Shown piece by piece: positions 52,283-64,000 of a DNA stretch of 64,000 bases (positions within the stretch are counted from its first letter, which is position 1; the number at the start of each line of letters is the position of its first letter). The translations under genes were made by a program, and so were the position numbers. The stretch spans positions 1,816,065-1,880,064 of the forward strand of contig BCJC01000001.1 in assembly GCA_001600175.1 (NCBI GenBank). The letters run 5' to 3'. The stretch is from Erythrobasidium yunnanense (taxonomy: Eukaryota; Basidiomycota; Cystobasidiomycetes; Erythrobasidiales; Erythrobasidiaceae). The notes beneath the pieces are model-generated. The model made no database searches, was not told the origin of the DNA, and saw nothing but the letters and a program-made list of their open reading frames with translations.

Positions 52283-54178
52283 ATGCTTCGCCTCGTCGCT
52301 CGCCAGCGGGGACTCAACGCTCTGAGCTCTCGAAGCCAGCTAAAAGCAAAGGGTCAGCTTGAGACCAGCGAGAAAGCTGGAACAACATTACAATACTGAC
52401 GATTCATCCATCTATCCTGCCCTGCAACCTCGTTCTCCCGTTTTCTCTGCTGCAGCCCTTCACTCCTCCGCATATGCTAGGGCTCTTCAAAAGTTCGCAA
52501 TGCCTGCAATGTCGCCAACAATGACTGAGGGAGGTATTGCGACGTGGAAGAAGAGCGAAGGCGACAAGTTCCAGCCTGGCGACGTCCTGTTGGAAATTGT
52601 GAGGCACCCGCACAATCATGCTTGGCTGCAATGGCTGACCAGTTGCACTGTTTTCACTCATGCTCAATACTCTCTTATTCAAATAGGAAACTGACAAGGC
52701 GACTATGGATGTCGAAGCGCAAGACGAGGGTGTCCTAGCCAAGATTGTGGTAAGCTCGATCAGAGTTACAGCAATAGACACATCTTGATTAACACATCGG
52801 CATCATCAGGTCAAGGACGGAGCAAAGAACGTACAAGTCGGATCAACGATAGCCATCACTGCTGAAGACGCCGACGAGATCAACGATGCCGATGTAGAGA
52901 AGGCAATGAAGGAAGCAGAGTCGGAGCCATCAGCTGGCAACGAAGGCAAAGAAGAGACGTCTGCACCCAAGAAGGAGGAGAGCAAGCCTGCTGAGCCTGC
53001 AAAGAAGGAAGAGCCAAAGCAGGAACCAAAGAAGGAGGAGAAGAAATCGGAGAGCAAGCCTGCATCAGGCTCGTCTGGAGAGTCATCATCACCTGCGCAG
53101 AGGGACCACATCTTCGCTTCACCCATCGCGAAGCGAATGGCATTGGATAAGGGCATCGCGCTTAGCCAAGTCAAGGGTACCGGCCCTAACGGTCGCATCA
53201 TCAAGATTGACATTGAGAACTACAAGGGTGCACCAGCCAGTGCTAGCTCAGGCGCAAGTGCAAGCGGATCCGGTCCCCTACCTGCCTCAACGAAACTACC
53301 TCCAGGCTCTCCACCCGCGAAGGAGATTGCCGTTCCTCAGAATTACGAAGATATCCCCAATTCCAACATGCGCAAAGTCATCGCTACCCGTCTTACAGAA
53401 GCCAAGCAGAGCATCCCCATGTATTACCTTACAGCCGAAATCAACATGGACAGAGTCCTCAAGCTCAGAGAGGTATTCAACAAGGCCGCTTCAGCGAGTG
53501 ATAAGGGATCAAAGGATGGTGTTAAAGCTGGTATCAAGCTGTCAGTCAACGACTTTATCGTAAAAGCTTCCTCGATCGCTCTCCAAGACGTGCCAGAAGT
53601 CAACTCGGCCTGGATGGGTGACTTTGTACGACAGTGAGGCGATCTATTCACGTCTATACGGACTCGTTGACTGACGTGTATCCTACAGATATAAGAGCGC
53701 AGACATCTCGATCGCAGTATCAACACCAGCAGGTCTCATCACGCCTATCATCACCAATGTAGGGGGCAAAGGGCTTGCCTCAATATCTTCCGAAGTGAAG
53801 TCACTCGCCGTCAAAGCGCGGGACAACAAGCTCAAGCCACACGAGTACCAAGGCGGCACTTTCTCCATCTCCAACCTGGGCATGTTTGGCATTTCTCAAT
53901 TCACAGCTATCGTAAACCCACCTCAATCGTGCATCTTGGCTGTAGGAGGAACGGAGCAGAAATTGGTGCTTGATGAAAGCAGCGAAAAGGGATTCAAGTC
54001 TGTGAACGTCATGAAGGTCACGATGTCGGCAGACCACAGAATTGTGGATGGCGCAGTCGGTGCTAGATGGTGAGTCGAACATACTCCGGAGCCTTAAATC
54101 TAAGCTAATGAGTGGTCCGCGATACAGGATGGCCGCCTTCAAGGAGGCAATGGAGAACCCGCTCTCCTTCATGCTGTA
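52283..54178 (+). CDS. LAT1: Pyruvate dehydrogenase E2, dihydrolipoamide acetyltransferase
   Basis: The acetyltransferase core of the mitochondrial pyruvate dehydrogenase complex. A mitochondrial leader ([20 protein letters not shown]) is followed by an intron, then [20 protein letters not shown] and one lipoyl domain whose lysine sits in [20 protein letters not shown], interrupted by introns at about 52600-52687 and 52750-52809. A Lys/Glu-rich linker ([20 protein letters not shown]) leads to the E1/E3-binding domain ([38 protein letters not shown]). The catalytic domain follows: [74 protein letters not shown], and the active-site block [16 protein letters not shown] with His and Asp. It ends ENPLSFML at 54178. 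The exact first splice pair is not fixed. Confidence 0.95.
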
Positions 54179-54438
54179 AAATGACTAGATGAGATGGACG
54201 CGATGTACTGTCAACAGACTTGATATACGACCCCTCTCTCTTTCAATAGTATCGCAAAATACGCTGAGGTCCTGCCCGCGGGATCAGCTCGAGCAGGTTT
54301 CGGTAAGAAGAGGCCAATCAGAAGCAATGTCATATAGGAGGTGATGCTACTGAGGCAGTGCCTGCCAAATCATTTGGGCACAACACATCCAGGGTGAAGG
54401 ATGCTCTGAATACGCCGAATAACGTTAAGCCGTAGTCA

Positions 54439-54852
54439 CTAACGATTACGCTTTTGAAGCCTCTTTCCGAATGGGGCGAAATCCTCGGCAATGCGCGCAC
54501 CGTCGTGCTGTCCCATACGACAGGTGACTCCAATGACTTGGTCGAAAGGACCTACCCTCTTCAGCCGCCTAAGGTGGGCATCTTCACGATCGAGGTCGTC
54601 AAAAACACTCTCAAATGGATGCCATGCACCGCGGCGGCCTCTCAATTTGGTGTCTATCATGGTAAGCCTTCCGTCCTCAGAGATGCTGAGCGTGACTTCA
54701 TAGAGCAGTCTCTGATCCTCAGCTGCGCGAGTGCTCTTCGATGAGCTTGGACCTGATCGGCCTGCGTCCGAATTTTGACAGGTGCCTTTGTCTTGTCTAC
54801 GTTTCTTTTGGCCGCTTCTGTCGGGGGTGCGGTCAGCGATGGTTGAAGACAT
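54439..54852 (-). CDS. GPF-motif small protein, tandem family member 1
   Basis: An intronless frame of 137 residues, no known family. The N-terminal half is basic and polar (TPDRSGQKKRRQDKGTCQNS), with a possible nuclear localisation signal. The C-terminal half is an ordered block: LLYEVTLSISEDGRLTMID, WHPFESVFDDLDREDAHLRR and LKRVGPFDQVIGVTC. The same order occurs in the frames at 55301-55777 and 56529-56882: an HEV/YEV strand, a Trp-x2-Phe-x3-Phe helix, Asp-rich turn, then GPF. It is followed, in opposite direction, by the GRMPE frame at 54952, 100 bp away. No signal peptide or membrane segment. It converges on LAT1. Confidence 0.6.
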   Translation of the reverse strand: MSSTIADRTPDRSGQKKRRQDKGTCQNSDAGRSGPSSSKSTRAAEDQRLLYEVTLSISEDGRLTMIDTKLRGRRGAWHPFESVFDDLDREDAHLRRLKRVGPFDQVIGVTCRMGQHDGARIAEDFAPFGKRLQKRNR

Positions 54853-54951
54853 TGCTAGGATGGTTGACAGTCGGCAGCACTGAAAAGTGCGGATAGCTGA
54901 TGAGGTAGCTTGAAAGGTGGAAAGCAGGAGTTATAGTCTCCTCTTTAGCGG

Positions 54952-55273
54952 ATGCCGAAGAAAGAAGAGAGCAAACGAGCGCAGATCGAGCAAGCTTTAT
55001 GGGCGCAAAAACAAGCTATACAGCAGGATCGCTGTTATTCGGTCGTGGCTGTATCCGGAAGGATGCCTGAGACGGAAAATCGCTTCAAGGTCGTTCTGCA
55101 CGCAAGCTAGAGCAGTCTCAGCACAATTGACCTGGCAACCAAACACAAGGAGTCATAGGCGAGATGTGCAGGAACGTGGCGGACTGACTTCAAAAGATCC
55201 GTACACCAGAACCAGTGGCAGCTTTACGATCAATTGGCAGACGTGTGTACGACAATATATTCCTAGAGCATAG
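54952..55273 (+). pseudogene. GRMPE-motif gene copy A, frame displaced relative to copy B
   Basis: The first frame starts MPKKEESKRAQIEQALWAQK and contains CYSVVAVSGRMPETENRF, then stops at 55110. The rest of the resemblance to copy B (55815-56150) continues in another frame: FCTQARAVSAQLTWQPNTRS, ending at 55273 (SFTINWQTCVRQYIPRA). Aligning the DNA by eye from GGAAGGATGCCTGAGA to the following TTCTG shows copy A to be one base longer than copy B. So copy A is either decayed or carries an unseen splice. The start is 100 bp from the divergent GPF gene, the same arrangement as the next pair. Confidence 0.5.
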
Positions 55274-55300
55274 GAAGTATGGACACCTATGGAGTTTCGC

Positions 55301-55777
55301 TCAAGCAGCGGATAGAGAAGCAAAAGAAGCACAGAAGCTGTGTGCATAGGCTCGGAATTTGCCGCCGCCAGATCCAGCAGATCCACGGTCGGCTTTCAGA
55401 CCCTTGTGGCAGGCGGCCAAGAAGTCAACATTGAAAGGACCGTGCCTTGTCCATTGTGCGAGTGAAGGATCGGCGACATCATAGTCTTCGAAGACGCTGC
55501 AGAACGGAGCCCAGACTGTCTGACCGATCTCCCTGGCTTGTCCGAACACGATTCGGCTCCTGGCTGCATCCACGTTGACTCTCATCCAAACCTCGTGTGT
55601 GGGAGATGAATCGGTAGCCTTCGATTTTCGCTTTGATTTTGCTGGTTTTCGTCTATCCTCATCTGACCCGCCCTTGCGTCCGCTGTCTCTGATCGCATGC
55701 GAATCTGCCCGGCGGCGCCGTCTCTTGCTCCGTTCAGACTTTGCTGGGTAAGTGCTACCAGGTATGACTGTATTCAT
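55301..55777 (-). CDS. GPF-motif small protein, tandem family member 2
   Basis: An intronless frame of 158 residues, unknown family. The N-terminus is strongly basic (SERSKRRRRRADSHAIRDSG, RRKPAKSKRKSKATDS), like a nuclear localisation signal. The shared block reads SPTHEVWMRVNVDAARSRIV, VWAPFCSVFEDYDVADPSLA and QWTRHGPFNVDFLAACHKG, then a Gly-rich turn and FRAYAHSFCASFASLSAA. Its counterpart in member 3 ends HYCAHNFTSSR. It is divergent from GRMPE copy B, with only 37 bp between start codons. Such spacing implies shared or overlapping leaders. Confidence 0.6.
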   Translation of the reverse strand: MNTVIPGSTYPAKSERSKRRRRRADSHAIRDSGRKGGSDEDRRKPAKSKRKSKATDSSPTHEVWMRVNVDAARSRIVFGQAREIGQTVWAPFCSVFEDYDVADPSLAQWTRHGPFNVDFLAACHKGLKADRGSAGSGGGKFRAYAHSFCASFASLSAA

Positions 55778-55814
55778 TCGTGAGTCTCTTGACTGGCGCC
55801 CGACAAGGAGCAGA

Positions 55815-56150
55815 ATGTCCGAGAGTCGACGAAATGCCCCCCGACGTCCAAAGCAGAACGTCTTGTCTTTTCCAGGGTGTGACGACGAACGAAGAGAGTG
55901 GGGTGTAGAAGAGCGGCAACGAGCAGTTGTGGAGGCGCAAAGCAGCGCTAACCAGCAGCGTCGGCGGCGCCAGATGGTCGTAGCTGTGCCCGGAAGGATG
56001 CCTGAGAAGGGAAGTCACTTAGAATTGTTCTGTACGCTTGCGCGAGCACTCCAAGCAGAAGTGGCCTCGTTACCAATGACAAGGCCTGAAAGCCGAATAT
56101 CGTTTCAGCAGGTCCGCCTGGCTTTCGTGAACGATGTTCAGAGACTTTAA
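55815..56150 (+). CDS. GRMPE-motif small protein, copy B
   Basis: An intact intronless frame of 111 residues: MSESRRNAPRRPKQNVLSFP, then a charged helix (EERQRAVVEAQSSANQQRRR), RQMVVAVPGRMPEKGSHLEL, FCTLARALQAEVASLPMTRP and ESRISFQQVRLAFVNDVQRL. Copy A shares AQ-x2-A-x-QQ, VVAV-x-GRMPE, FCT-x-ARA, a P-x-TR and the hydrophobic end. The VV-x-V strand followed by a helix faintly recalls the HEV strand of the GPF proteins. That relation is speculative. No known family, signal peptide or membrane helix. Confidence 0.6.
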   Translation: MSESRRNAPRRPKQNVLSFPGCDDERREWGVEERQRAVVEAQSSANQQRRRRQMVVAVPGRMPEKGSHLELFCTLARALQAEVASLPMTRPESRISFQQVRLAFVNDVQRL

Positions 56151-56528
56151 GCTGCCGTCGTTTGTGGATTCGAAGTCATCAGCCTAATCTATGGACAGCA
56201 GTCGCGACACGTCAGTAGTCAGTGACTGGTACAGATGCGCGGGCGACACACTCGTTGGACAAGGCGAGGCGGTGTTTATTCGGTTTCGTTCCTGCCCAGT
56301 CAAGACACAGAGTACCAATAGGTGTCGCTTCAGTACTGTCAGTAGTCGATGCGTACAGCGAGATGCAGGCATCTGGTGGCCTAAAACGTTCGCGACAAAG
56401 TTCCGATGCCTATTCAGTCCCGTCTGGCGCTTATGATGGAGGCAAAAGAACGCCTGCAAGTCAGAGTCGGATTACGGAGTGGAAAAGCTGAGTGAGCATG
56501 AATCTCATTTGCACCGTTAGGCCCTCGG
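56151..56528. other. Spacer within the tandem array
   Basis: About 380 bp. A plus ORF (56222-56491) and its antisense shadow show no likeness to either array family. It may be a decayed array unit or a leader region. Confidence 0.35.
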
Positions 56529-56882
56529 CTATCTAGAGCTCGTGAAATTGTGTGCGCAGTAATGGCCTCTCTGAGTGATTGTAAGGTAGCATTTCAATGT
56601 GATGTCCGCTTCAAATGGCCCGTTCTTACGCAATCGCTTGATGACAGGATGCTTGTCATCGAATTCGTCGAAGATCTTGCCAAAGTTGTCCCAGCGTTTC
56701 GAAGCAGCCTCTCTGGCGAGTTTCAGGTAGATATTCTTGTCGCTGTCGACGGTGACCACGACTTCATGTGTAGGCTGCAAAGCTTTGACGTCTGCAGATT
56801 CCTGGGCGCGGTTGTACATGGGCACTCGTGCCTCTGGAGGAGTTCGCTTGCGATGGCGATACTGCTGGTGGGTCTTGCCCAT
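56529..56882 (-). CDS. GPF-motif small protein, tandem family member 3
   Basis: An intronless frame of 117 residues. The N-terminus MGKTHQQYRHRKRTPPEARV is basic. The shared block is LQPTHEVVVTVDSDKNIYLK, WDNFGKIFDEFDDKHPVIKR and LRKNGPFEADITLKCYLTI, ending GHYCAHNFTSSR. It is the shortest and cleanest copy and defines the core: HEV strand, short hairpin, helix with W-x2-F-x3-F-[DE]2-x-D, GPF, strand with Cys, and a final AH-x-F. No GRMPE partner is visible beside it. Function is unknown. Confidence 0.6.
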   Translation of the reverse strand: MGKTHQQYRHRKRTPPEARVPMYNRAQESADVKALQPTHEVVVTVDSDKNIYLKLAREAASKRWDNFGKIFDEFDDKHPVIKRLRKNGPFEADITLKCYLTITQRGHYCAHNFTSSR

Positions 56883-57160
56883 GATAAGCTGATTATGCTG
56901 AAGCGGCAGACGTTCGGATACGATATAGTGGTCCGAGCGGGGAAAGTGGGAAGAGCTTGGAATTGATGCGTGTCGAAGCTAGAAGTAGCTAAGCAGACAG
57001 CGATAGCTGGAGCGGATTTGCATTGCCTCGCCTTTCTTGCGGCACTCCTTTGAGACACCTATAGATATATAGAGATCACTAAGCGTGTCTCTTTCCGCAC
57101 GGTTGAGCGTTGGCGCTCGCGCATGGCATTTAGGCTGAGCAGTGCTTCAGCAGAGTCGCG

Positions 57161-57948
57161 ATGTCGAGGCCTGCTTGCATACCCGACAACTTCGTCATTG
57201 CCGACATGTCTACGACTGTACTCCCTGGGCAGCCTCTGCATCTTGCATCATCAAATACTGCAGCTTCAGCAAGCGTCGGTGCTGGGCGAGGAGCGTTTGA
57301 GCGAGATTCTTCAGTCTTCAGCAGCAGCGTAGGGCGAGTAAGCCGGGAAGGAGGGCAGATAACGGTAGCAGGGAAGGATAGCAGGAGTGCGATACCAGAG
57401 ACTGGGAGCACAGTCAGTCTGCCCGTAGCTTGCGCCTGAAGCTGGGCGTTGTCGCTGATTTCTTGGAAACGCCAGGTGCTGGGAACGGTGACGAGGCTGA
57501 CGAGGGTGCAGGCTGTCCTGAACATTATCGCTGTAGATGGTAAGCAGTGTCAGCAAGATTGGCAGGGAATCATCAGAATCGCAGATATCCGCCAAACTGG
57601 TCAGCGCAAGAAAAGCCCATGATTTCGCAGAACCAGAGCTGACACCGCACGCAGACAAAGACAAGATCAAGATCTGGGATTGCTTCAGACCGGGAGACGT
57701 CGTCAGAGCGTCTGTGGTGCGTAACCTTGGTGCTTTAAGGCGTACATCCCAATCTGAAGCTGGAATTACAGATCTCGCTCGGCGACGTACGCTCCTACTA
57801 CCTCTCTACTGCTCAGAACAACCTTGGCGTCGTATTTGCAAAGCACTCGGAGTCTGGAAACAGATTACAGCCCGTCAACTGGCAGGAAATGCAAGATCCC
57901 ATTACGGGTCTTGGCGAGTCAAGAAAGGTAGCAGGGCCTTCCGCCTAG
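57161..57948 (+). CDS. CSL4: Csl4, S1-domain cap subunit of the RNA exosome
   Basis: Csl4 caps the exosome ring and binds RNA. The model needs four exons: MSRPACIPDNFVIADM to SAIPETGST (Csl4 N-terminal domain); VLGTVTRLTRVQAVLNIIAV with DGKQCQQDWQGIIRIADIRQ (S1 start, 57478-57596); DKDKIKIWDCFRPGDVVRAS (57647-57715); and ISLGDVRSYYLSTAQNNLGV, VVFAKHSESGNRLQPVNWQE, MQDPITGLGESRKVAGPSA (from about 57769). Each junction has a GT donor and AG acceptor and keeps frame. The last two exons match the family strongly, including DCFRPGD and the CSL4-typical PVNWQEMQDP block. Longer minus-strand ORFs across 57130-57670 are shadows. It converges on the gene ending at 57973. Confidence 0.9.
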
Positions 57949-57972
57949 AGGTCTCTATCTATACTACATGCT

Positions 57973-58629
57973 TCAGAAATGCCAGCCGAAAGCATTCGTG
58001 CCCAAAACGATAGTTGCTATCCCAAGAGCAAGAAACCAGAAGCCAGCCAATGCGTAGCCACATCGTAGAGCCCACCGTCTCTCCTCATCTCTCCGCTGTT
58101 CATATATTTCCTTCTGGTACATCTGCTGGCGACCGCTTCTTTCGACTCCTCCGATCGGTGCAAGAGCAGGTTTTGGAGGAGAGTTGTTGTCAAGAGGGGC
58201 TGGCGCCAGAGATAGAATATGAGAGGATGGTGAAGTGTTCCAACAAGGGAGCTCGCAGACTTCGCCGCGGGATGGTGCTTCGGAGAAGATGTCGAAGTAA
58301 TGTAGGAACCCCCAAAGCCAGATAGGGAATCTATGGCACGCGCAAGTCAAATCAGCTTGGTAAAGTCCATGGTTGTGTGATTATCCTCACATCAAGAAGC
58401 CATACGCAAAGCACCTCTCAGCGCGTGTTTTGTGGGCGTTTAGACTGTAGGTTGGAGGAGGTACGATCGGCCGTTGTATATGGAATGTCGAGACCGTGGG
58501 AAAGAGACAGTCTTGCTGCTCGTATGACGGGGGAGGAACTTTGCAGTCTGCAACTTTTTGCGAAGTATAGCTTGCGTCGGGCGACAAGCCTGAGCTTTGC
58601 TCGACTTCAATATGAACGACGATGGACAT
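57973..58629 (-). CDS. Small membrane protein with two PPxY motifs
   Basis: Two exons. The start MSIVVHIEVEQSSGLSPDAS is followed by VPPPSYEQQD and later VPPPTYSLNAHKTRAERCFA, each with a PPxY motif that WW domains of Rsp5/Nedd4-type ubiquitin ligases bind. The intron (donor GTGAGG near 58391, acceptor TAG near 58332) joins YGFL to IFPIWLWGFLHYFDIFSEAP, a hydrophobic stretch. A Pro/Ser linker and a charged helix (QKEIYEQRRDEERRWALRCG) lead to a clear membrane helix (FWFLALGIATIVLGTNAFGW) at the C-terminus, stop 57973. The plan fits a fungal ubiquitin-ligase adaptor or a membrane cargo. That role is inference. Confidence 0.7.
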
Positions 58630-58942
58630 GGCACAGGTTGTAGGAAGATTTCGACGATGATGCTTTGCGGATACGAAAGCAGTCGTTTCAGCGATCTTCT
58701 GCTTCTTCAGCCAGCGCGCGCTTGGGCCATCTCGATGCGATGGTGATGCGAGGCCATCTTCACGACCTCTAGCTTGCACGAAGCCCCCTCCTGGAGTGCA
58801 CGCTCTGCATCAGCACTGGAAAGAATGAAGAGTGTCCCGTGTTTTCTAGTACAGATGCGATTGGTACATACATGAACCTCCCAAACCACCTCGATGCTCT
58901 GGCCCAAATGCCTTCCCTCATGCTATCCTCTCGTCCCTCTTG

Positions 58943-60311
58943 CTATACAACAGTGATCTCTTCAGTCCCTGACGCTGATGCTGCTGATGATTCTTTCCCA
59001 TAACTATGCATCCTCTCGAAATTTCGAAGATCCGATCTGGTGAATGCGATGTCGAAGCGGTCCGGCTCAGACTCTGCGTGTGCCTCTGCCTTCTCTTTCG
59101 CCAGGACAGGCAGGTTGACCACATTCACGTGTCGCAGTACACCCGAAGGGACTTCATCGACTCCGTCCATGTCGGATCGCACCACCTCCAGCCTGTCTAA
59201 GCAATAGAGAAGCGAGTAGACGTCTGCCCATGCATGTCAGCTTATCTAGCTGATTAGGGTACCGTAGGTCGTTCGCCAAAACTCACAAACTGAAGGCGTT
59301 GGAAACAAAATAGCCAGGAAAGTGTTGCGACTGTAAAGCATAGAGGAATCAGCTAATCTTACTCGGCTTTCTTCAATCTTCTCACCTGTCATACTGAGCT
59401 GTGGCTAATGCTACGGCAGCTCCAACACCCGTAAAGACTGCCGTCATCGCTGCCGTCTCGAAAGATAGCCTGGCAAGCCGAGTAGCTATGCTGTCCGTGC
59501 TGGAGAAGATACATTCGTCAGTCTGGATTCCAGCCCTTGTCGATAATCCGCTCACGGTGTCTCAAGTCCCGTCTTCTGTCGATACAGCCCGATCATGAGA
59601 ACGATGGATATCGATAGATCCGTCAACAATCCTCCTCCAGCATACAGCTCCGTCCATATAAACAGGCCAACCCAGGATCTGTTGGTTCCTATAAGTGCCG
59701 ATGTCAGCTAAGCAGCTCGAGCGATTAGTCGGCGGCACTCACCTGCCCATACAGTATAGCCTATCCCGCCGGTGCAGCAGACTGCCATACAGATTGCGAT
59801 GTATACAAGAAAGACGTAGCTCCGGTTTACGACCTGCAACCTGAGCTTCAGCTGCAATTCGCTGCGCTTCATCGAGGGCCACTCACCCGCCAAGCTCTTT
59901 GAGCGAAGTAGCCTTGCACGACCAGTGCTACGATAGCGAATAAGGTAGGTACGCAAGCATCAGGAAGCGTGTACGAGCTGTCGTAGTTTGAGCACGTGCA
60001 CCTGTCAGCACTTTGTTTGGATCCTGGACAGGCACTGACAGCTCACCTCAGAGTGTCGATATCCCTCTTCTGTATCGTGCCCCAGTAGAAGACGCCATAG
60101 TAGCAAAGGCCAGAAACGCCGAGGTTGACAGCCGTAACGAGTGCGACCGCCCTCTTTAGCCATTTGCCAAGCTTGCTTTTTGAGGAGAGATGCGGCAGCG
60201 CTTTGTGCAGACAGATGCCAGAGAAGAAGATTTGTGTACACCATCCAACAAAAGGTGGGCCAGTGCTGTTGGTCCAGAAGAAAGCTCAGCAACTGACCGG
60301 CTTGCATGCAT
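58943..60311 (-). CDS. DUF6534-like multi-pass membrane protein
   Basis: A multi-exon gene for a protein with about seven membrane helices, of the plan common in basidiomycetes. Blocks: STGPPFVGWCTQIFFSGICL; KRAVALVTAVNLGVSGLCYY; YTLPDACVPTLFAIVALVVQ; NRSYVFLVYIAICMAVCCTG; WVGLFIWTELYAGGGLLTDL; ATRLARLSFETAAMTAVFTG; NTFLAILFPTPSV; and DVYSLLYCLDRLEVVRSDMD. The soluble tail reads EPDRFDIAFTRSDLRNFERM and ends EEITVV at 58943. The proposed start at 60311 uses a 14-nt first exon (MHASR) and a 32-nt intron, so the 5' end is uncertain. Function of the family is unknown. Confidence 0.65.
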
Positions 60312-61007: not shown

Positions 61008-62861
61008 TCACTTCCCGATACAAAAGCTGCTGAATAGCTCATCCAATATTTCGTCTACCTGCACTTGGCCAGTTACGCGACCAAGAGCATAGGACGCATA
61101 TCGGAGCTCTTCAGCGGCGCCTACGAGATCCATCGCAGGATCAATATCTGTATCGACGATAACTGTAAATTTATGTCCGTGTTCGAGGCGACCAACTTAC
61201 CGAGAAAAGTGTCGAGGCATCGCATGCAGTCTTCAAGGTGATAGCGGTGCCGTTCGCGTGTTACGAGCAGTGCTCCGCCAGCAGTGCCGGTATCCATGCT
61301 GTTCAGAGATTAGCCGAATCTCTACAAGTACGCGACGCAACTCGGCTTACCATTCCTCGACCCGCTGAAATAGCATAGTAGATAGCTTCGCAAGACCCTG
61401 CTTTTGCAGAATACTGATTACCGACACTTGATTCTTGTTCTTGATGCTCAAGAGCGCCTGAAGCTTGTCAAGACGCTCTGGACCAAAGGTTCGTAGATCC
61501 GCCTTGTTGAGGACGTATATTGTCTTGTCGTCGACCAGTGACGCAGTGATCCGATCCAAGAGAGGCTTGTCGGGGTCCACCTCGGCAAGAGAAATCATGC
61601 AAAGCTTGATGTCGGCATCCTTAACCCTGCAAGAAGCGCATGTCTAAGTCGCATTCCCAACGGTGATAGGTTTGGCAGCTTACGTCTGTATAGCTCTCTC
61701 TACACCAATACTCTCGACTTCATCAGGCGTCGTACGTAGACCGGCCGTATCGCAAATGATCAACGGATATCCTCGAAAATCGAGTGATATTTCAAGGACA
61801 TCTCGCGTAGTGCCCGCGTGCGATGTCACGATTGAAGCTTCTCTTTGGACTGAGAATCTATTTAGCGAGGTAACATGGCTCCGAACGTACATCGACTTAC
61901 CAAGCCAGTTGACCAAGCTACTCTTGCCTGCATTCGGCGCGCCAAAGATCGCTAATCTGGCTCCGTTCCTGATGATCTCCCCTTGTCGAGCCTTGTCGAG
62001 ATGCTCTGCGATAGTATCTCGTAAACCGATTATCTTCCTGCGAGCAGGCTCGTAGGCGTTGTCGTCGATGTTCTCATCTTCGCCGAAGTCGATAAGAGCC
62101 TCCATGACAGACATGGCTGAGATGATCTCGCTTCGCATATGCTCATAAGCTTTGCGCATGCTTCCCTGCCTCAAGCTTCAGAACGGTTCTTTGGCAGGAG
62201 AAAGCATAATTAGGCTCACCCCTGCTTGCTCTACGGCCAGCTTCCTTTGTATCTCCGTCTCGCTCTCAATGAGATCTCTTAAGCCTTCTACTTCGGTAAG
62301 ATCCATCCTTCCGCTATCGAAAGCTAGACGTGTAAATTCGCCTGGCTCAGCAGGTCTGAAGCCATCAAGCCGGGCTAGGGAGGACAGAACAGCTTTGATG
62401 ACGGCGGTAGATCCATGGAGGTGCAGCTCGAGCATGTCTTGCGCTGTCAGCGAGTTTTTGGCTGTGACCGATACGTCAGATTGCGATGCGGCTTTCGAGC
62501 AATCAGCTTCACCTGGGAAATATAGCACAAGGCCTTCGTCCAGCTTGGTCGATGTTGTCGGGCATCTGATCTGCCTCAGCAATGCTTTTCGAGCAGGCGG
62601 CGGCCAGCTGCCAGTGCTGGATCCATCGCGTTTCTTGAAACTATCCCAGACTTTGTTGACATCTGGACCTGATATGCGAACAAGAGCTATTGCTGATTTC
62701 CCTGGCGGCGTCGCTACCGCGAAGATGGTCGGCGGATCATGGTTTGCCGAGCTCGAATGCAGTCGATAACGAAGCTGGACAAAGCGCTGGCTAGTCGAGT
62801 ATTTCAGGAGAGTGCTAGAGCAATTCAGATATAGTCCAAATCGCTGAGAGTGTATGAGCAT
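61008..62861 (-). CDS. MSS1: Mitochondrial tRNA-modifying GTPase Mss1/MnmE
   Basis: With Mto1 it makes the 5-taurinomethyl or 5-carboxymethylaminomethyl group on wobble uridine of mitochondrial tRNAs. The start [20 protein letters not shown] is a likely mitochondrial leader. The formyl-THF-binding N-domain shows [20 protein letters not shown] and [20 protein letters not shown], with [20 protein letters not shown]. After an intron near 62170-62215 come the helical part ([20 protein letters not shown]) and the G domain: [17 protein letters not shown] (P-loop), [20 protein letters not shown] and VLNKADLRT. The C-terminus keeps [20 protein letters not shown] and the catalytic FCIGK at the very end, stop 61008. 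Introns also fall at about 61172-61200, 61299-61350, 61628-61683 and 61852-61904. Confidence 0.95.
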
Positions 62862-62964
62862 GTAAGCATGAGTAAATGTGCAATCGCTAATGTTTCGTCT
62901 TCTGCATACAGATATGCTTGCAGCTAAGAGATCATTTCTTTCGCCTCTGCATCCGTTGAGTTCA

Positions 62965-64000
62965 TCACTCCTGGTTTTCGTCCTCTTCTACTTGCGGCAG
63001 GCTATACTCCAGACGCTTGTGCTTTCTGCTCTTCAGCTCCATTTCACCGTCCTCCTGCATCTCACGATAGTGTGTCGTTTCGCAGATATGCTTTCTCGCG
63101 ATGTAGTACCTCATATTGTACCGTTCTTTTTGCGGACAATCCATGCATCTGAAAAGGCCAGGTAGTTGGGAGAATGCCGAAATCTCGTTGGGTATCGGGT
63201 GTCCAGCTGCCTCGATAGCGGCTACGACGCTTGAGAGCTTACGACTGCTCTTGTGATCGTGAAAGATCGAGCTGAAGTCGAGAGGGATGCTTCGCTTGCC
63301 GTAAGTAGACTGGTCAAAACGATGCTGGCTGAAGAGCGGGCTATCGACTCTTTTGCTGTGGACAAGGCAGATTTAATCTCAAACACGAACAGGCATCGAG
63401 GGTACCACCTACCAGAAACAAGCATGATCCAGGACCGTCGGCCAATATAGCGTGCCAACCCCTTTGGACCAGCAGTGCACACATCCGAATACTGCTTTGA
63501 CGGGATGAATGACGTCTCCCGCATTTAGAGCCTCTGCCCGCTTCTCCCCCACGACCTGCAGGCAATGGTAGCGATGTGAGCTGACAGTGGAGTGAAGGAT
63601 ATCGAGCAACCTGCCAGAAGAAGCAGCATTTCAAGCCCTACGTAGCAAGGAAACCTCAGTGGGGGCCTTCTGGAGGAGCACACCTACGCACATTCATCTC
63701 GCAGTTCAACCATCTGGTCACAGAAGTCGGCCCAGTTCGACGTCCATAACTGAGAAGTAATGGCGGGAGATTCGATGTCGGTCTGAACACTCTGTAGGGT
63801 GGGTTTGACGGCTGGAAGCGATAGTACATCGGGCATATGGTGTCTGTAATCGAAGTCCCACGGGATCTTGCCCTCCATTGCCGCCTCGTCCAGTGATGCT
63901 GATATATAATTCTCGATTCTGCTGCTGGCGGACTTGAGCTTCTCTGCCGCTTCATATTCTTCACGGAACACACGTATTTGGTTGATCTTGTCAGCGCGAT
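62965..64000 (-). CDS. Hypothetical protein with Cys/His C-terminal motif (partial)
   Basis: The 5' end is beyond the right edge. Exons joined by frame and splice signals: FREEYEAAEKLKSASSRIEN to SNWADFCDQMVELRDEC; a block with VVGEKRAEALNAGDVIHPVK and GCVHCWSKGVGTLYWPTVLD; an exon with KRVDSPLFSQHRFDQSTYGK; HDHKSSRKLSSVVAAIEAAG, HPIPNEISAFSQLPGLFRCM; and a last exon ending LKSRKHKRLEYSLPQVEEDE at 62965. A Cys/His cluster (FRCMDC, then KHICETTH) may bind zinc. The overall plan, with no signal peptide in the visible part, resembles basidiomycete F-box-type proteins. I cannot assign a family. It lies upstream of MSS1 on the same strand. Confidence 0.6.

Follow-up and report, generated by a model that had tools for sequence, protein, structure and literature searches.

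Tandem small genes and a duplicated upstream segment at one locus of Erythrobasidium yunnanense

We found that three small leftward open frames in a 64-kb stretch of contig 1 (1,816,065–1,880,064; hereafter the window) share one protein motif, and that two of them, GPF1 and GPF2, are preceded by homologous copies of a DNA segment of about 240 bp. GPF1, GPF2 and GPF3 would form a tandem array of one family generated by duplication of one small gene, the duplication behind GPF1 and GPF2 would also have copied the upstream DNA, and the copied DNA would have been retained, most likely as a cis-regulatory block through which these two genes may share control. We regard this as the best explanation, with a confidence somewhat above even. 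The preliminary description had read the locus as a duplicated unit of two divergent genes, GPF and GRMPE; under the favoured explanation, plus-strand readings of the copied DNA would have been mistaken for the second gene family. The features concerned, in window coordinates, are as follows.

54439..54852, minus strand: GPF1, a 137-aa open frame, family member
55301..55777, minus strand: GPF2, a 158-aa open frame, family member, its N-terminus the most basic of the three
56529..56882, minus strand: GPF3, a 117-aa open frame, family member
54921..55162, no strand: upstream segment copy A, within which lies most of the 'GRMPE copy A' frame
55850..56096, no strand: upstream segment copy B, which includes the core of the 'GRMPE copy B' frame
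55055..55072, no strand: 18-bp core, copy A place, identical in both copies
55990..56007, no strand: 18-bp core, copy B place, from the genome pattern search
54952..55110, plus strand: 'GRMPE copy A' frame, 52 codons, judged not a gene
55815..56150, plus strand: 'GRMPE copy B' open frame, judged not a gene

The three GPF frames are flanked by a dihydrolipoamide acetyltransferase gene and a CSL4-type exosome gene, both on the plus strand. The former gave 2-oxoacid_dh matches in two separate plus-strand frames, and the latter matched EXOSC1 at 21.9 bits (cut-off 21.2), with ECR1_N at 24.1, under its cut-off of 27. This CSL4-type exosome subunit gene (57161–58010, plus strand) is divergent from the adjoining GPF3. 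A TrmE/MnmE-type GTPase gene with a TrmE_N match lies at 62181–62987 on the minus strand.

All three GPF frames are open throughout, which is consistent with intronless genes, and they share a HEV/YEV strand, a W..F...F pattern, an Asp/Glu-rich turn, the GPF letters and a C. A C-terminal A-x-[NSD]-F, absent from the preliminary description's list, is also common to them. In tblastn searches of the window, GPF2 found GPF1 at E 4e-9 (reverse 3e-8) and GPF3 at E 3e-7 (reverse 6e-9), while GPF1 found GPF3 at E 1.6e-5 (reverse 2e-4). In searches covering the whole genome (20.9 Mb, 10 contigs), GPF2 recovered the other two copies at E 6e-7 and 1e-5, and GPF1 and GPF3 as queries matched each other only at E 0.006. 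Alignment scores of the three pairs (114, 77 and 97) were higher than those of all 1000 shuffles made for each (maxima 57, 47 and 50), and of 300 shuffles a fraction of 0.003 had at least three ATG-started frames of at least 117 aa within 2.9 kb. The proposal of three minus-strand frames with a shared motif was thereby borne out. Weak genome matches of the GPF2 query (L004 and L006, the latter by eye resembling a piece of an ordinary long gene) and of the GPF1 query (L034) were set aside as chance. Searches for GPF relatives elsewhere gave 25 pattern matches in viral contigs and 69 in prokaryote genomes, none of which was confirmed. A minus-strand frame at 58894–59001 starts with MGKNHQQH, similar to the GPF3 start MGKTHQQY (E 4.9 by tblastn within the window), possibly by chance.

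Codon-level comparison favoured coding constraint on these frames. Identity at codon positions 1, 2 and 3 was 50/50/32, 44/52/35 and 57/54/46% of aligned codons in the three pairs, the third position being the least kept in each, and pS exceeded pN in all pairs (0.85/0.76/0.61 vs 0.48/0.51/0.44). Codon usage was scored with a table drawn from the 27,147 codons of 70 long frames, taken from the window and from 20 fetched loci, for which true frames had a median of 0.099 per codon and true 120-codon frames a 5th percentile of -0.032. GPF3 (0.066) and GPF2 (0.037; next frame 0.026) ranked first of their six frames; GPF1 (0.001) ranked second, which counts against the favoured explanation, and all three scores fell between the 5th percentile and the median of true frames. 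A table built from the window only behaved similarly, with GPF2 and GPF3 first of six and GPF1 at -0.02 behind one frame. Judged by their sequences, the GPF frames form a genuine family of small genes under purifying selection.

In the whole genome a place on contig 2 (about 1,657,297–1,657,446, minus strand) was also matched by GPF2 (E 0.035) and GPF3 (E 0.11) and was not among the matches of GPF1. The reciprocal search from this fragment returned GPF2 (E 0.005) and GPF3 (E 0.029), with GPF1 absent. Its alignment scores were over all 2000 shuffles for GPF2 and GPF3, with p 0.0045 for GPF1, the place having been preselected by the genome-wide search before shuffle testing. The fragment carries W..PF..VF, DP, C and a C-terminal A-x-N-F, with G-R-H at the GPF position of the other members, and seven columns (W-x-x-F-x-x-x-F, G, C, A-x-x-F) are invariant across it and GPF1–3, although these W, F, F, G, C, A and F columns were derived from the same four rows that were used for scoring. 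It is probably a fourth, distant GPF relative. No HEV strand was detected upstream of the match (nine tests, lowest p 0.07), an in-frame stop stands upstream of the matched piece, and the relative may be broken or spliced differently. A nearby frame (L038, 128–403) looks, by eye and from one motif, like part of a G-protein alpha subunit.

The family was described as unrecognised, and domain searches agreed. Pfam gave nothing up to E 10 for GPF1–3, GRMPE copy B, the GPF2 and GPF3 domains or the contig-2 fragment, in a scan whose filters remove most weak matches; NCBIfam gave nothing over cut-off, its sole listing being lanmodulin for GPF3 (E 0.15, 12.1 bits vs 135). Single-chain structure prediction had been suggested as a check: the best of five models of the GPF3 domain, built from the four-row alignment, reached pLDDT 78.9 (the others ranging down to 42.5) and pTM 0.66 with a strand-strand-helix-strand-strand order (86 residues with one helix and four longer strands), and the GPF2 model, from three alignment rows, was poor (pLDDT 47.4). 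Foldseek comparison of the GPF3 model with the PDB gave no match at E <= 0.001 among 50 of 490 matches, the best being ATP-grasp enzymes at 0.17, and with a viral library none at E <= 0.001 among the 50 matches listed. The top viral match was the predicted structure of Myxococcus phage Mx8 p80 (E 0.022, probability 0.92), for which a TM-score of 0.43 and an rmsd of 9.9 make a common fold unconvincing. A W-x-P...DP stretch of the contig-2 fragment was similar to the PNP-oxidase-like general stress protein 26 (PDB 3dmb and 3u34; phmmer E 0.027 and 0.059). Such proteins were not listed by the GPF family profiles up to E 10 or by the Pfam scan, and none with this split-barrel flavin-binding fold was among the 50 of 490 PDB matches to the GPF3 model; the likeness, coming from weak matches of the contig-2 fragment only and without a profile match, was treated as chance. 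A sequence match to Rrp6 (E 0.042) was likewise set aside.

The basic N-termini ascribed to the GPF frames were confirmed, with pI values of 10.4, 11.4 and 10.5 for GPF1, GPF2 and GPF3. These basic tails may hint at small nuclear proteins, in which the tail could serve nuclear import or nucleic-acid contact and the compact domain of about 80 residues, as modelled, could bind a partner. The GPF products are perhaps small nuclear binding proteins.

Turning to the DNA upstream of the genes, copies A and B proved to be one homologous segment of about 240 bp (blastn E 1e-22 in a local comparison). Their alignment has 164 of 252 columns identical, with 110 bp inside it at 75%, and falls into seven blocks parted by gaps of 2, 7, 1, 1, 3 and 1 nt; in the ungapped columns 157 of 239 are identical and 82 of 239 differ (about 34%). 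Copy A DNA used as a whole-genome query found just two places, copies A and B. The plus-strand reading of the 18-bp core spells the GRMPE letters, and genome-wide this core has two exact places and three more with two mismatches, against one for a reversed-pattern control. Copy A lies 68 bp and copy B 72 bp upstream of the start codons of GPF1 and GPF2, respectively, and their distances from the stop of the preceding gene are 138 bp and 432 bp. Since it kept the same distance from the GPF starts and not from the preceding stops, its sharing is explained by duplicated upstream DNA. The upstream DNA of GPF3 and of the contig-2 locus, when compared, gave no trace of the segment, and GPF3 would be an older copy or would have lost it.

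We therefore asked whether the plus-strand GRMPE frames have the properties of genes. Copy B is a 111-aa open frame from ATG 55815, within a longer GTG-started frame, and the copy A frame runs from ATG 54952 to the TAG at 55108–55110, with the FCT-x-ARA match (from 55094) in another frame. Neither start nor stop is homologous between the copies: the copy B ATG lies outside the homologous segment, and the copy A ATG is aligned to GTG. Shared promoters of 37–100 bp had been proposed between divergent genes; the spacings of 99 and 37 bp are correct, but the ATGs of copies A and B that delimit them are not homologous. Amino-acid conservation beyond DNA identity was examined in the three blocks of at least 30 nt (of the seven) in six frames, against a null that keeps the substitutions and moves their positions. 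The nine plus-strand values were p 0.15–0.83, and the lowest of the 18 tests was p 0.03 in a minus frame, which is not significant because 18 tests were made. The segment as a minus-strand GPF exon was rejected with this p of 0.03 among 18 tests and with both copies stopping at the same place.

Substitution patterns gave a similar result. In the GRMPE frame, the two longest blocks, which have 43 codons and 39 differences, gave a pN/pS of 0.99, and in the five other frame combinations it was 0.77–0.95. Simulated medians were 0.22, 0.34, 0.43, 0.62 and 1.00 for omega 0.1, 0.2, 0.3, 0.5 and 1.0, with 5–95% ranges of 0.14–0.35, 0.22–0.53, 0.28–0.70 and 0.39–0.94 for omega 0.1, 0.2, 0.3 and 0.5. 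Strong coding constraint on the segment is excluded by this sequence comparison; the observed 0.99 is barely over the omega 0.5 range and thus leaves room for weak or relaxed constraint. The synonymous/nonsynonymous comparison of the copies, which had been named as one part of a possible refutation, gave pS over pN in the GPF frames and a pN/pS near 1 in the GRMPE frame. Copy B codon usage was -0.079 per codon (-0.09 with the window-only table), third of six frames and under the true-frame 5th percentile, and the copy A FCT piece scored -0.141 per codon.

A genuine GRMPE protein gene that formed a divergent pair with GPF, was duplicated along with it and is now broken or spliced in copy A would agree with the 111 open codons of copy B, with a tblastn match that places copy B on copy A as two pieces (window E 3e-4) and with the codon usage of the copy A frame (0.059, second of six), which favours coding over 51 codons only. 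This reading is opposed by the pN/pS and plus-strand frame tests, the non-coding-like usage of copy B and of the FCT piece, gaps that are not multiples of 3, the non-homologous start and stop, and a whole-genome search with the copy B protein in which copy A was absent from the matches up to E 10, and we consider it very improbable. A spliced plus-strand gene was also rejected, as no homologous GT donor was seen by eye beside the indel at 55086 and pN/pS is 0.99. A weak genome match of copy B (L010), by eye a piece of an ordinary long gene, was set aside as chance. The GRMPE frames are most likely readings of duplicated DNA and not genes, so the duplicated unit would be one GPF gene with its upstream DNA. 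The proposed second family, and with it the duplicated divergent pair, was not supported by these tests.

A segment kept between copies without a coding signal could instead yield a structured non-coding RNA. Folding of the right-hand part of each copy (133 and 132 nt, the sole part folded) on both strands gave z values of 0.57, -0.27, -0.22 and -0.12, and an Rfam scan of 54100–57200 gave nothing up to E 1. With no fold better than shuffles in that part and no Rfam match, a structured RNA was rejected and we give it hardly any weight, though an unstructured RNA may be made there.

The segment, about 34% diverged, is better kept than the silent sites of GPF1 and GPF2 (pS 0.85, i.e. saturated), and either constraint or a later copy is therefore needed. 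Gene conversion or a small segmental duplication could have copied the segment between the two upstream regions more recently than the genes separated, with drift otherwise. The segment would then be younger, and its 82 differences in 239 columns, far below the silent divergence of GPF1 and GPF2, fit that expectation. This seems to us a minority possibility, against which stand the nearly equal distances from the two start codons and a weak clustering of identical columns (p 0.014–0.043 in four tests; longest run 18 bp, p 0.016 and 0.030). The clustering suggests patches of constraint, although a comparison of just two copies cannot tell such constraint from later copying or conversion. Retention of the segment as a cis-regulatory block is still the reading that we prefer. 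Its stronger form, in which GPF is a new nuclear domain family and the block a long, truly constrained control element of two anciently split paralogs, kept far better than their silent sites, seems to us a minority possibility.

Fungi have other small orphan genes in local tandem arrays, and the GPF array resembles these in its few members, unrecognised domain, tandem duplication and strong copy divergence. Unlike them, it includes two copies whose upstream DNA is better kept, over about 240 bp, than the silent sites of the copies themselves. The locus contributes a small protein family that has no name yet, and illustrates that upstream DNA common to tandem duplicates can mimic a second gene family in a six-frame reading. 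A control element of about 240 bp is unusually long for a compact genome, and if the upstream block is truly constrained, it would be a conserved element of that kind.
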